Shown one piece after another: positions 37,595 to 61,041 of a stretch of 64,000 nucleotides of DNA (its first letter is position 1; each line of letters begins with the position of its first letter). The notes under the pieces are model-generated. The model ran no database searches. It was not told the origin of the DNA and was given only the letters and a program-made list of their open reading frames with translations. Made by a program: the position numbers and the translations under genes. The stretch comes from Streptomonospora salina (lineage in GTDB: Bacteria > Actinomycetota > Actinomycetes > Streptosporangiales > Streptosporangiaceae): positions 1,519,001-1,583,000 of the forward strand of contig NZ_JACHLY010000001.1 of NCBI RefSeq assembly GCF_014204715.1, read 5' to 3'.

Positions 37595-38122
37595 TCAGTC
37601 GCGGCCGAGGAGGTAGGCCAGCTCCTGTGTGGCGAACCAGAGGAGCTCGTGCCCCTCCAGCGAACCGCCGCCGTCCTCCGGGGAGCCGCCGCCCTCCGCC
37701 GGCGAACCGCCGCCGTCCTCCCGGGAGCCGCCGCCGTCGGCGATCGCCGCCGCGACGGCCTCTTCGGCCTCCGGTTCGTCGGCGTGCACGGCGGCGATGC
37801 GCGTGCGGGCGACCGTGCCGGTGACGGTGACCGCGGCCGGGTGGTCGGCCCCGGCCGGCGGCGGGCCGACGATCGTGTCGGGGGCCTCGACGGCGAGCAC
37901 CGCGCGGCGGCGCGGCGCGGAAGGGTCCTCGCGCAGCAGCTGCAGCGACGCAGCGGCGGCGCCGCTCAGCGCCTCGTACTCCAGCTCTTCGTCGTCGGCG
38001 GCCGTATCCGGGCCGGCCAGCCGCTCGGTGACGGCGTAGGCGGTCAGCGGCGTCCCGCCGACCTCGCCGGCGTCGAGGACGGCGGCGAGGCGGGGGAACG
38101 TGCTGGGCAGGTAGATGCGCAT
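37595..38122 (-). CDS. DUF6912-like protein with GGGS repeat insert
   Basis: 175 residues. 'RIYLPSTFPRLAAVLDAGEVG' and 'LTAYAVTERL' are typical of a short actinobacterial family (DUF6912, as I recall), as is the C-terminal 'HELLWFATQELAYLL'. Between them, residues about 129-156 are four 7-residue units of the type DGGGSxE. No helix or signal peptide; cytoplasmic. Function unknown. The start ATG at 38122 has GGGA upstream. The gene is followed by the long inverted repeat. Confidence 0.7.
   Translation of the reverse strand: MRIYLPSTFPRLAAVLDAGEVGGTPLTAYAVTERLAGPDTAADDEELEYEALSGAAAASLQLLREDPSAPRRRAVLAVEAPDTIVGPPPAGADHPAAVTVTGTVARTRIAAVHADEPEAEEAVAAAIADGGGSREDGGGSPAEGGGSPEDGGGSLEGHELLWFATQELAYLLGRD
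37655..37738 (-). repeat. Four 21-bp coding repeats (DGGGSxE)
   Basis: Four in-frame copies of a 21-bp unit encode D/E-GGGS-x-x. The units differ slightly, so they have had time to diverge. It is a flexible linker in an otherwise compact protein. Confidence 0.85.
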
Positions 38123-38309
38123 CGTGGTCCCGCGGATCGTTTCTCGTGGTCGGGCGGAGAGTGTCCGCCCGGAAAGTCTGCCAGAGGCGCGCGGATCGGC
38201 GGCACGGCGCCGGGCGGACGCGGCCGGGCGGTGCGGGTCCGGGGACGGTGCGGCGGCGGACGGTTCCCGGCGCTCCGGGCCCGCCCGCCGCCGGCCCGGG
38301 AGGGCCGGG

Positions 38310-56065: not shown

Positions 56066-57982
56066 TCAGCCCGGGTAGACCACGTTGGTCCCTTCGATGA
56101 CGCGCTGCCAGTTGATCCGGTCGTTGGTCATCCACACGTTGTCGTCCTCGGTGCTGGACAGCAGCGGGAGTCCCGGCGCGGCGGTGATGCCGACCATGTC
56201 GGTGCCCAGAGGCGCACCGGCACTGGTGGTCTCGGTGCTGCCGTCCAGGGAGACCAGGTAGCCCTGGCCGGCCTCGTCCTCCGCGCCGCCGAGCACGGCG
56301 AGCTGGTCACCGCCCCGCCAGGAGACGTCGGTGACGTTCTGCAGTTCGGTGGCCAGCGGAATCTCCCCGCTGACGGTGACGCCGCCGTCGGAGTGGGTGA
56401 TGCGGCCCACCGACAGCTCGGCGCCGCCGCCCGTCCAGTCGTCGGTGAGCGCGGCCGCCCGGGTGCCGTCGCGGGACAGCCGCAGCGCGGTGACCTCGGT
56501 ATCGGCCAGGTCCGGGGCGTCGACCTCGACGGGGTCGGTGCCCCCGCGCAGCATCCACACGCGGGTGCCGGGATCCCCGCTGTCCCCGCCGCCGGAGGGC
56601 GACGGGGACGGCGACGAGGACGGGGCGCCGAGCCCGGTGTCCTCGGCGGCCGACTCCGAGCCCTGCTCCGGGTCCTCCTCCCGGCTGCCCGTGGAGACGT
56701 CCTCGGTCACCCACAGGTTGCCGTAGCCGTCCCAGGACAGCGATGTGTAGTCGCCACCGGAGAGGACGGCGGAGTACGCGCTGCCGGTGGCCGTCCCCGC
56801 GACGACGACCTCCTGGCCGCCGGCCCGGATGCCGCCCACCTCGTCCTCGTCCAGGGACACGGCGTGCCGCTCCAGCACCGCCCCGCCGTCACCGGGGGCG
56901 CCCGGAACGCGGCGTTCCTGGGGCTTGGTGTCCTCGCTTTCGCGCTCCAGCGCCCACATCTGCCCGTCACGCAGGAAGTAGGCCCGCAGGCGGCCGGTGA
57001 CGCCCGAGGGGTTGACCGACTCGTAGCCGTCCTCCGGCGGCGGGAGGCTGTCGCCGTCCGCACCGGGGATGTCGATCTCCTCGCCGCCCACGCGCAGCGT
57101 CAGCTCCTCGACCCCGTTCAGCTGGCTCAGCGTCCACACCAGCTGCGCACCCATGCCGAACCGCTGCTTCTCGGAACCGGCGTCGGCGTCGACCTCGACG
57201 GTGACGCGGCCGGAATCGTAGGCCACGTCGGCGGTGGCGCCCTCGGGAAACGCCGACTCCACCGCCGTGTCGAGCCATTCGGTGGGGCCCTCGACCAGCA
57301 TCTTGACCAGCCGGGTGGCCGACCGGTCGCTGCTGACCGGGAGGAACACCGGGTCGGGCACCAGGGTGCTGCGGTCGCGGTTGAAGAAGTACAGGTTCAG
57401 CGACCGGTAGGCGAGGTCCACGTCGCTGCGGCTGAGCACCAGCCGGTCGGGCGGCTCCGAGATGCGCCACTGGTCGTCGCCGTTGCGCACGAGCCCCACG
57501 GTGACGTCGATGACGCGGCCGGAGTCGGCCGGAAGGTACTGGCCGCCGGCTTCGATGGTGGCCAGCTGGCTGCCGAGCAGGCGCACCGTCGCGGTTTCGC
57601 CGTCCTCGGAGACCTCCGTGTCGATGGCGAGTTTGCTGGTGTCCTCGTAGACCAGGACGCGGCCGCCGGGCGCCCAGTCGCTGCCGGACGCGGCGGTCAG
57701 GTACTCGCGTGCGGCACCGTGGTTCTCCTCGAAGCTGCCCATGCTCTTGAGGAACCCGCGGATCAGGCCTTCGGGATCGACGCCGGCCTGGGGCCCGGGC
57801 GGCAGCTGGCGGACGTAGCCGCTGCCGGCGGCGGAGCCGGCGTCGCCTCCGGCGCCCTCGACGACGGGGCCGCCGCTGGGCACCGCAGCGCACGCCGAAA
57901 GCCCCGCGGTGAGCAGGGCGGCGGCCGCGGCGGTTACGAGGCGGCGGGTGCGCCCTCGCGGTGCCCTGCCGGCGGTGCTCAC
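56066..57982 (-). CDS. lpqB: Lipoprotein LpqB
   Basis: 638 residues from the GTG at 57982 (GAGGAGG 4 bases upstream). Lipobox 'GLSAC' (Cys31), then 'VYEDTSKLAIDTEV' and a GerMN-like region ('GLVRNGDDQWRISEPPDRLVL', about 160-300). The second half is a degenerate beta-propeller. LpqB interacts with the sensor MtrB and modulates MtrAB signalling at the cell wall. Its start overlaps the stop of the full-length mtrB frame in GTGA, which shows that this frame was originally translated to that point. Confidence 0.94.
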   Translation of the reverse strand: MSTAGRAPRGRTRRLVTAAAAALLTAGLSACAAVPSGGPVVEGAGGDAGSAAGSGYVRQLPPGPQAGVDPEGLIRGFLKSMGSFEENHGAAREYLTAASGSDWAPGGRVLVYEDTSKLAIDTEVSEDGETATVRLLGSQLATIEAGGQYLPADSGRVIDVTVGLVRNGDDQWRISEPPDRLVLSRSDVDLAYRSLNLYFFNRDRSTLVPDPVFLPVSSDRSATRLVKMLVEGPTEWLDTAVESAFPEGATADVAYDSGRVTVEVDADAGSEKQRFGMGAQLVWTLSQLNGVEELTLRVGGEEIDIPGADGDSLPPPEDGYESVNPSGVTGRLRAYFLRDGQMWALERESEDTKPQERRVPGAPGDGGAVLERHAVSLDEDEVGGIRAGGQEVVVAGTATGSAYSAVLSGGDYTSLSWDGYGNLWVTEDVSTGSREEDPEQGSESAAEDTGLGAPSSSPSPSPSGGGDSGDPGTRVWMLRGGTDPVEVDAPDLADTEVTALRLSRDGTRAAALTDDWTGGGAELSVGRITHSDGGVTVSGEIPLATELQNVTDVSWRGGDQLAVLGGAEDEAGQGYLVSLDGSTETTSAGAPLGTDMVGITAAPGLPLLSSTEDDNVWMTNDRINWQRVIEGTNVVYPG

Positions 57983-58278
57983 GTGACCTCCTCGGCCGTG
58001 CTGTCGTTCACGCCGGAATCCGTACCGGAACCGGCGGCCGCGCTGTCGTCGGCCCGCGGGTCCGGGCCGTCCTCCGGATGCGGCACCGGACCGGCGCCGG
58101 CGGCCCCTCCCGTCTCGGTGTCCGCGCCGGTGCCCGAACCGTCGGCGGCGCCGGCCGCTCCCTCGCCCATGGACGCGGAGAAGCCGCGCACTCTGCCGGT
58201 GGCCATTTCCGGCGGCGCCAGCGGCAGCGGCGACCCGCGCAGCTCCTGGCCCTCCCGGCGCGGCAGCGACAGCCGGAA
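57979..58278 (-). pseudogene. mtrB: C-terminal part of mtrB beyond the amber codon
   Basis: The 99 codons after the TAG continue the mtrB frame with 'FRLSLPRREGQELRGSPLP', the conserved end of MtrB, then a Gly/Asp/Ser-rich tail to a TGA that overlaps the lpqB start. An internal ATG at 58206 could restart translation for 75 residues of tail, but it lacks the conserved end. Coding character continues unbroken, so it was coding until recently or still is by readthrough. Confidence 0.8.
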
Positions 58279-59856
58279 CTACGACCCCTTGCCGGGCATG
58301 CCCCAGGCCTGCAGCCAGCCGCCGTGCAACCGGGCGTCCTCCTTGGCGATGGACAGCCCCAACCCGGTGCCGCCCGTGGTGCGCGCCCGCGCGGGATCGG
58401 CTCGCCAGAAGCGGTCGAAGCACATGTGCTCCTCGCCCTCCTTGAGGCCCACGCCGAAGTCGCGCACACCCACGGCCACCGCGTCGCGGTCGCCGGCGGC
58501 GGTGACGATGACGTCCTTGCCCTCGCTGTGCTCGACGGCGTTGACGACGAGGTTGCGCAGGATGCGGGTGATGCGGCGCATGTCGAACTCGGCGGTGCAG
58601 GGCTCGGCCGGCAGCCGCATCACGACCTTGATTCCGGACTTCTCCGCGATCTGCTCGGCGTCGCCGACGGCCTTCATCACCACGTCGCGCATGTCCACGC
58701 TCTCCATCGAGAGCGTGGCCGCGCCGGCGTCGTGGCGGCTGATCTCCAGCAGGTCGGCCAGCAGCTCCTCGAACCGCTCCAACTGGCTCTGCAGCAGTTC
58801 GACGGAGCGCCCCATGTGGGGATCCAGCTCGTCGCGGTCCTCGTAGAGCAGATCGCCGGCCATGCGGATGGTGGTGAGCGGGGTGCGCAGCTCGTGGGAG
58901 ACGTCGGAGGCGAACTGGCGCTGCACCTGCGACAGCTCCTCCAGCTCGCGGATCTTCTCCTGCAGGTTGCCGGCCATGTCGTTGAAGGACAGCGCGAGCC
59001 GGGCGAGGTCGTCCTCGCCGCGCACCTTCATGCGCTCGGAGAGGTCGCCCGAGGCCAACCGCTCGGCCGAACCGGCGGCCGCGCGCACCGGCGTCACCAC
59101 CTGGCGGGTCACGACGTAGGCGATCACGGCCAGCAGCAGGATCAGCACCGTGCCGACGAACACGACCGTGTTCTGCACGAGGTCCAGCATCTGCTGCTCG
59201 TGTTCCAGCGGGAACACGTAGTACAGCTCGTAGGCGTTGGACAGCCGCGCCCCCACGACCAGTCCGGGCGCGCGGTCGTCGTCGTCGACGATCTCGGTGT
59301 AGGTGACGTACTGCTTGCCCAGCTCCATGGTCGAGCCGACCTCGTCACGCAGCTGCTGGGGAACGGCCTTGTCGACGGTGGAATAGCCCGACAGCCCGCC
59401 CACATCGGGCAGGATGACCACTTCGTACAGCCCGGTGGTGCCGCTGTGGTTGCTCAGCTGGGCGGTGATCTCTTCGGCCCGGCCGTCCTGGTCGGCGTTC
59501 AGGTCGGCGTCCTGCATGATGCTGACGGCCCGGTCCAGCCCGGCCTTGTGGTCGTTGAGCGCCGCCTCGCGCTTGGCGTCGAGCAGACCGGTCAGCACCT
59601 GCTGCACCAGGAAGAACCCCAGCACCGCGGTCACCAGCCCGGAGATGATCAGGGTGGTGGTGACCACGCGCAGCTGCAGTGAGCGCCGCCAGCGCGTGTG
59701 CACGCCCCGCACCAGCCCCCGGGCACCACGTTGCGCGGTCAGGTAACAGCGCAGCGGAAAAGCGGCGAATCGGTGCCAGCGCGAACGCGCGCCGCCCGGC
59801 TCCCGCGCCGGCCGAGTCGCGCCCCCGGTGTCTGCATCGCCCGTCGCCTGTGCCAT
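58279..59856 (-). CDS. mtrB: Sensor histidine kinase MtrB, cut by an in-frame amber codon
   Basis: 525 residues before a TAG at 58281-58279. Domains: helix 1 at about 62-85, an extracytoplasmic sensor region (about 86-228), helix 2 at about 230-250, a HAMP linker, HisKA with 'FASDVSHELRTPLTT' (His321) and HATPase with 'NLVVNAVEHSEG' (N box), 'VGVRDFGVGL' and 'GTGLGLSIAKEDARLHGG'. The frame then reads 'WGMPGKGS' followed by TAG where relatives have Gln ('GGGSQFRLTLP'). The last strand and tail of the ATPase domain are thus lost unless the stop is read through. With MtrA it controls cell wall and division. Confidence 0.9.
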   Translation of the reverse strand: MAQATGDADTGGATRPAREPGGARSRWHRFAAFPLRCYLTAQRGARGLVRGVHTRWRRSLQLRVVTTTLIISGLVTAVLGFFLVQQVLTGLLDAKREAALNDHKAGLDRAVSIMQDADLNADQDGRAEEITAQLSNHSGTTGLYEVVILPDVGGLSGYSTVDKAVPQQLRDEVGSTMELGKQYVTYTEIVDDDDRAPGLVVGARLSNAYELYYVFPLEHEQQMLDLVQNTVVFVGTVLILLLAVIAYVVTRQVVTPVRAAAGSAERLASGDLSERMKVRGEDDLARLALSFNDMAGNLQEKIRELEELSQVQRQFASDVSHELRTPLTTIRMAGDLLYEDRDELDPHMGRSVELLQSQLERFEELLADLLEISRHDAGAATLSMESVDMRDVVMKAVGDAEQIAEKSGIKVVMRLPAEPCTAEFDMRRITRILRNLVVNAVEHSEGKDVIVTAAGDRDAVAVGVRDFGVGLKEGEEHMCFDRFWRADPARARTTGGTGLGLSIAKEDARLHGGWLQAWGMPGKGS

Positions 59857-59866
59857 TTCGCCGGTT

Positions 59867-60559
59867 TCAGGCGGTCCCCGCCTTGTAGCCGACGCCCCGT
59901 ACGGTCACCACGACCTCCGGGTGCTCGGGATCCTTCTCGATCTTGGCGCGCAGCCGCTGCACGTGGACGTTGACGAGCCGGGTGTCGGCGGCGTGGCGGT
60001 ACCCCCACACCTGCTCCAGCAGCACCTCGCGGGTGAACACCTGGCGCGGCTTGCGGGCCAGGGCCACCAGCAGGTCGAACTCCAGCGGCGTGAGGCTGAT
60101 CGGTTCGCCGTCGCGGCGCACCGCGTGGCCGGCGACGTCGATGGTGATGTCGCCGATCTGCAGCACCTCGGGGGCCGGCTCCTCGGTGCGGCGCAGGCGC
60201 ACCCGCACACGCGCCACCAGCTCCTTGGGCTTGAACGGCTTGACGATGTAGTCGTCGGCGCCGGACTCCAGGCCCAGCACTATGTCCACGGTGTCGCTCT
60301 TCGCGGTGAGCATCACGATCGGCACGCCGGACTCGGCGCGGATCTGCCGGCACACGTCGATTCCGTCGGCGCCGGGCAGCATCAGGTCCAGCAGCACGAG
60401 ATCGGGCTTGGTCTCGCGGAAGGCCTCAAGCGCCTTGTCGCCGTCGTGCACGAACGACGGTTCGAAGCCTTCGCCTCTGAGGACGATGCCCAACATCTCA
60501 GCGAGAGCGAGGTCGTCGTCGACGACCAGTACGCGTCCCTTCATGGGTGTATCCGGCAC
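59867..60559 (-). CDS. mtrA: DNA-binding response regulator MtrA
   Basis: 230 residues from the GTG at 60559, with GGAGGAGG 6 bases upstream; ATG codons at 60544 and 60577 lack a suitable site. Receiver domain: 'VLVVDDDLALAEMLG', phospho-Asp58 in 'LVLLDLMLPG', 'VMLTAKSD', 'KPFKPKELVAR'. OmpR-type winged helix: 'PLEFDLLVALARKPRQVFTREVLL' and 'VHVQRLRAKIEKDPEHP'. It is the partner of MtrB; 10 bp separate the two genes. Confidence 0.97.
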   Translation of the reverse strand: MPDTPMKGRVLVVDDDLALAEMLGIVLRGEGFEPSFVHDGDKALEAFRETKPDLVLLDLMLPGADGIDVCRQIRAESGVPIVMLTAKSDTVDIVLGLESGADDYIVKPFKPKELVARVRVRLRRTEEPAPEVLQIGDITIDVAGHAVRRDGEPISLTPLEFDLLVALARKPRQVFTREVLLEQVWGYRHAADTRLVNVHVQRLRAKIEKDPEHPEVVVTVRGVGYKAGTA

Positions 60560-61041
60560 GAGGTCCTCCTCCCACATCGGAGGCGCGGAGACTCGCGCCT
60601 TCTCCTTTCTGGACACTCAAGCGGCAGTACTTCGGACACTTTCGCCGGGTCCCTATGTGGGAGCCGTCCTCCCCACTCACCTTGCCATCTTCCGAACCGG
60701 GCTTCGCCCGGTCCGCTCACCAGCGAATCGGCCCCTGCCGGGCGGCACGACCGCCCCGGTGGCCCGCCCCGCAGAGCGGTTCTGCGCGCCACCCTGCCGC
60801 CTGCACCGCCGCGCGTCCATACATTCGGACCCGCGGTGGCTGCGCAGCTCGCGCCGACTTGGCCGACAGATAACAGAAAGCATACAAAACGAATGAACCC
60901 GCGCGGTGCCCGCGAGCCCTGCCCGGGATCGCGGCGCCCGGCCACCGGGCGCCGCAGGGGCGCCGTGGCATACCGTGGGGAACGCTACCGCCGCTCCGAG
61001 TACGACAGCGAGTACGACAGCACGACGGAGGACCGACACCG
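60560..61041. promoter_or_regulatory. Divergent region upstream of mtrA
   Basis: 482 bp. Two GGACACT copies (60611-60617 and 60634-60640), 23 bp apart, lie 50-80 bp upstream of mtrA and may be regulator half-sites. An AT-rich patch (60868-60897, with ATAACAGAAAGCATAC) is a candidate promoter. No gene is supported. Confidence 0.35.
60998..61021. repeat. 12-bp tandem duplication before the membrane gene
   Basis: GAGTACGACAGC occurs twice in tandem, 20 bp before the start of the gene at 61042. Confidence 0.8.

Follow-up and report, generated by a model that had tools for sequence, protein, structure and literature searches.

The sensor kinase MtrB of actinomycetes is encoded in an mtrA-mtrB-lpqB operon and has a HAMP-HisKA-HATPase_c architecture. 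Engineered mtrB deletions have been described in Streptomyces: according to the available text of the S. venezuelae study the mutant is viable, grows at an unchanged rate in liquid culture and has activated antibiotic production (PMC5487470), and the corresponding part of the S. coelicolor study reports that actinorhodin and undecylprodigiosin are switched on (PMC5845573). A UAG codon may also be recoded in bacteria, by a suppressor tRNA or as pyrrolysine, and in such genes the sequence beyond an in-frame UAG is homologous to the coding sequence of relatives. The genus Streptomonospora is known, as stated in the accessible part of PMC11533595, as a source of new bioactive compounds, i.e. the litoralimycins and persiamycin A.

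Here we report that mtrB of Streptomonospora salina is interrupted by an in-frame TAG codon near its 3' end. The observation is real and its cause is most likely ordinary: a recent mutation that destroys function, or an error in the sequence, is more likely than an unusual mode of decoding. The novelty is limited to a further private nonsense codon; we did not see mtrB interrupted elsewhere in our searches.

The mtrA-mtrB-lpqB locus

The genome (5.6 Mb, three contigs, 99.98% complete) was studied with focus on a stretch of 64,000 nucleotides, referred to as the window. The following features, all on the minus strand, make up the locus:

59867..60616, minus strand: mtrA, response regulator gene, intact and conserved in congeners; ORF counted from its first GTG, although translation may begin further in
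58279..59856, minus strand: mtrB through the TAG, 525 amino acids from the ATG at 59856; N-terminal sensor part, HAMP, HisKA, and HATPase_c without its end
58279..58281, minus strand: premature TAG, read from the sequence; a Gln codon in 5/5 congeners; within the predicted last beta-strand (524-532)
57979..58278, minus strand: what was the C-terminal part of mtrB, with 99 codons and the original TGA; the first 40 codons conserved, the other 59 variable among congeners
56066..57982, minus strand: lpqB; the GTG start overlaps the original mtrB stop and the frame ends at 56066

The gene order, with mtrA directly upstream, together with the HAMP, HisKA and HATPase_c domains identifies the interrupted gene as mtrB. 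The two neighbours are presumably mtrA and lpqB, judging from their position and from known family features. The initial annotation had placed an in-frame TAG in mtrB, followed by 99 further open codons and a TGA overlapping the lpqB start, and direct reading of the minus strand of the assembly confirms this: the frame runs ...GMPGKGS, TAG (58281-58279, codon 526), FRLSLPRREGQELRGSPLPLAPPEMATG... for 99 codons to the TGA at 57981-57979, which overlaps the lpqB GTG (57982-57980) as GTGA.

The first 600 codons after the lpqB GTG are open and homologues are present in five congeners. The sequence GAGGAGG lies directly before the GTG and could be a ribosome-binding site belonging to lpqB itself; for this reason LpqB is probably still translated. 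No promoter- or terminator-like sites were found in 57900-58400. With respect to substitutions, lpqB shows 41 synonymous and 55 nonsynonymous changes on its own branch vs 44 and 27 on the branch of Streptomonospora alba (p = 0.019; 30:48 vs 29:20, p = 0.029, with a stricter count). We draw nothing from this excess since p is below 0.05 for 5/40 window genes, lpqB among them, and the genes taken together show the same tendency: summed over the 40 coding-like window genes the ratios are 930:876 vs 731:508 on the S. alba branch (p = 5e-5), i.e. the share of amino-acid changes is higher on this lineage than on that of S. alba. One of the window frames, 37598-38143 (minus strand), has five synonymous and 34 nonsynonymous changes on its own branch and 64% identity to S. 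alba, and represents a fast-evolving gene or a misjudged frame.

Distribution of the stop codon and constraint on mtrB

The congeners compared include S. alba, the nearest relative in the comparison, S. mangrovi and Streptomonospora sp. PA3. MtrB is 95% identical to its S. alba counterpart up to the stop. All five congeners have Gln (CAG) at the TAG position and a frame open to its normal end, 48 to 100 codons further on, in keeping with the suggestion in the initial annotation that the tail would be in frame in a relative having CAG. Its statement that relatives have Gln (CAG) at this position therefore stands for the genus (5/5); elsewhere it holds in part, since the 39 other loci compared (many of them from metagenome bins, two partial, and with a distant Oscillospiraceae hit, L048, left out of the 40) have CAG in 26 cases, CAA in one and a codon for another residue in 12 (Cys in eight; Ser, Ala, Val and His in one each). 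The motif FRLxLP is present in 38 of the 39 loci, and the remaining one (L046) has FVLTLP. In these sequences the feature that is kept is the strand around the position rather than the Gln itself.

None of the 39 other loci has an internal stop. In a family search of 250 genomes mtrB was found in 246, and among the 150 matches listed only the present genome has an internal stop. Across the congeners, listed family matches and loci that were examined, the TAG is thus found in this genome alone. Moreover, mtrB is present in all 219 genomes with a completeness of 90% or more and a contamination of 5% or less, and as the gene is so widely kept its natural loss would be unusual. A second mtrB copy was not detected in the genome at E ≤ 1e-100.

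The open frame beyond the TAG is more than chance: it is homologous to the frame of the congeners, and its first 40 codons differ from those of S. alba by ten synonymous and no nonsynonymous changes (chance about 4e-6 from site counts). From this it follows that the tail has been coding through much of its history, and that the stop is recent or an error. Divided by branch the ten differences are 2:0 on this lineage and 5:0 on that of S. alba, with three assigned to neither; the two changes on the own branch are not enough to tell whether the tail was still translated once the stop had arisen. The last 59 tail codons (57982-58158, minus strand) have many codons for Gly, Ala, Asp and Glu and vary strongly in length and sequence between congeners. 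For mtrB as such the ratios of synonymous to nonsynonymous changes are 25:13 on its own branch vs 16:7 on that of S. alba (p = 1.0), and 26:11 vs 20:7 for the part before the TAG with four outgroups. Hence, relaxed constraint, as seen in pseudogenes after inactivation, is not evident in mtrB, which again indicates that the stop is recent or a sequence error. Two other marks of a pseudogene are present, i.e. an in-frame stop that truncates a conserved domain and its absence from orthologues in close relatives (5/5 congeners, 39/39 loci).

As to the domain affected, Pfam matches in the truncated protein are HAMP (249-300), HisKA (312-378) and HATPase_c (425-524). Of the 111 positions of the HATPase_c profile, 2-110 are matched in S. 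alba MtrB vs 2-100 in the truncated protein, with scores of 73.8 and 63.7 bits, respectively. The cytoplasmic part of the S. alba protein was modelled with AlphaFold2 from an alignment of 21 sequences hand-picked from 40 loci (mean pLDDT 73.7, pTM 0.62; block means over fragment residues 211-240 of 80, 81 and 88). In this model the last predicted beta-strand lies at fragment residues 224-232, corresponding to MtrB 524-532, and the TAG replaces residue 526. In the modelled fragment F227, R228, L229, L231 and P232 are invariant in the 21 aligned sequences, and the stretch aligns with solved kinases, e.g. 2c2a. With the greater part of this strand missing, the ATPase domain would be expected to unfold or to lose its activity. 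The shortened profile match, the position of the stop within the last predicted strand and its restriction to a single one of the genomes examined support the earlier proposal that a nonsense mutation or a sequence error has taken away the final strand of this domain.

Readthrough, sequence error or loss of function

In our judgement the TAG is probably a recent nonsense mutation, private to the strain or species, that probably inactivates MtrB. The initial annotation had also considered that the codon is read through, i.e. that programmed or general UAG readthrough inserts an amino acid (e.g. Gln) and yields full-length MtrB. The frame beyond the stop is indeed open and conserved, but readthrough is very unlikely given the remaining evidence. 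No relative examined has TAG at this position, so that a stop conserved across species is not seen. The suppressor tRNA that was suggested as a check was not found: a whole-genome survey with Rfam RF00005 (E ≤ 0.001) gave 56 tRNA genes, all of which were read by ARAGORN, in 30 loci and 21 stretches, and none has the anticodon CTA or TTA. RF1 is intact, and it matches those of the five congeners closely and without disturbance along its length. There is no PylS match in the genome (13/14 control genomes gave some match, one of them above the cut-off). A stimulatory RNA structure, which is not always needed, was not predicted either, as the 80 nucleotides after the stop fold worse than most shuffles (z = +0.99; three relatives gave -0.46, +0.15 and -0.41). 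Finally, if UAG were generally sense, internal UAGs would be expected in other genes, and members of two large domain families argue against this: mtrB is the only one of 70 HATPase_c matches in the genome with a stop, and 0/119 ABC_tran matches have one (150 of 216 candidates scored). Readthrough thus has nothing in its favour other than the open frame, and none of the titles listed in a literature search for readthrough in Streptomyces concerns such a case. A variant of this explanation is a lineage-specific leaky UAG with near-cognate decoding, where termination efficiency would set the amount of functional MtrB and de-repression of MtrA would have been selected in an antibiotic-producing actinomycete; we regard this as highly improbable.

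As a less likely but still tangible alternative, the TAG may be an error of sequencing or assembly, or a variant that became fixed in a single laboratory culture, with mtrB intact in the natural strain. It concerns a single base in a single assembly of a single isolate, no other interrupted mtrB was seen among the listed family matches and the loci compared, and the gene lacks any trace of relaxed constraint; such normal constraint is exactly what would be seen if the gene is in fact intact and the stop an error. The assembly, in contrast, is of high completeness in few contigs, and the lack of stops in the 69 other HATPase_c and in the ABC_tran matches indicates that stop-making errors are rare. 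The same is suggested by the window, where ORFs of relatives were aligned to the sequence and filtered by codon-position GC (shadow frames of the GC-rich sequence swamped comparisons made without this filter). The coding-like alignments numbered 40 (S. alba), 34 (PA3) and 40 (a further relative, G002), with two, one and three stops, and the mtrB stop is the sole one that recurs in all three comparisons; the other three were each seen in one comparison, 36, 39 and 21 alignment positions from the start, and are presumed to lie before start codons. The reverse comparison, of own ORFs with S. alba, PA3 and G002, showed one, two and five stops on the side of the relatives; these fall at alignment positions 3 to 46, and mtrB has none of them. 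The scarcity of stops elsewhere speaks against an error-rich assembly, while a lone substitution error is possible. The weights that we give to a real mutation and to an error or culture variant are judgements and were not computed. Outside the window, an ABC_tran domain (G000:C1:1674971-1675293) is split over two frames (profile positions 3-52, then 81-136), which may point to a gene with a frameshift or an internal deletion, or else to an indel error.

It is also conceivable, though very doubtful, that the truncation is neutral or functional, i.e. that MtrB works without the last strand and the tail or that a shorter MtrB has become the norm in the lineage. The tail past codon 40 is highly variable among congeners, and the shortened HATPase_c match at 63.7 bits is well above the Pfam cut-off of 26.4 bits, which is also a point against inactivation. 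The strand that is lost, however, is present in 39/39 loci and includes the invariant residues mentioned above.

Predicted consequences and comparison with known systems

If the nonsense mutation is real, translation would end at the TAG and give a 525-residue kinase that lacks most of the final beta-strand of the ATP-binding domain and is predicted to be inactive or unstable. MtrA would then no longer be dephosphorylated by MtrB and might be driven by other phosphodonors. By analogy with the Streptomyces mtrB deletions the cell would be viable, with MtrA targets including antibiotic clusters constitutively on, and translation of LpqB would probably continue from the ribosome-binding site of lpqB itself, though its level may be reduced. 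Since the deletion mutants are viable and have antibiotic production switched on, a natural truncation should be tolerable and could de-repress secondary metabolism. The importance assigned to MtrB in the initial annotation as central to cell-wall control was accordingly set too high, the Streptomyces deletion mutants being viable and those of S. venezuelae growing at an unchanged rate in liquid culture (PMC5487470). Provided that the base is real, the strain is a candidate for natural mtrB loss of function and might show de-repressed secondary metabolism; otherwise the case merely serves as a reminder, of a routine kind, that a single base should be verified before MtrB is annotated. Among the papers listed in a limited title-level literature search there was none on a natural mtrB nonsense mutation.

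Compared with bacterial UAG recoding, the locus is alike in having an in-frame UAG beyond which homology to the coding sequence of relatives continues, and it differs in that a matching tRNA and a PylS match were not found and the UAG is not conserved. It shares with the engineered mtrB deletions in S. venezuelae and S. coelicolor, as these are described in the accessible parts of PMC5487470 and PMC5845573, the loss of MtrB with MtrA intact, here as a prediction; those mutants carry a full deletion, whereas S. salina has a nonsense codon near the 3' end. The closest system is actinomycete MtrB itself, with which the gene order and the domain architecture agree, and from which the S. salina gene departs by a premature TAG at codon 526 where its five congeners run on.
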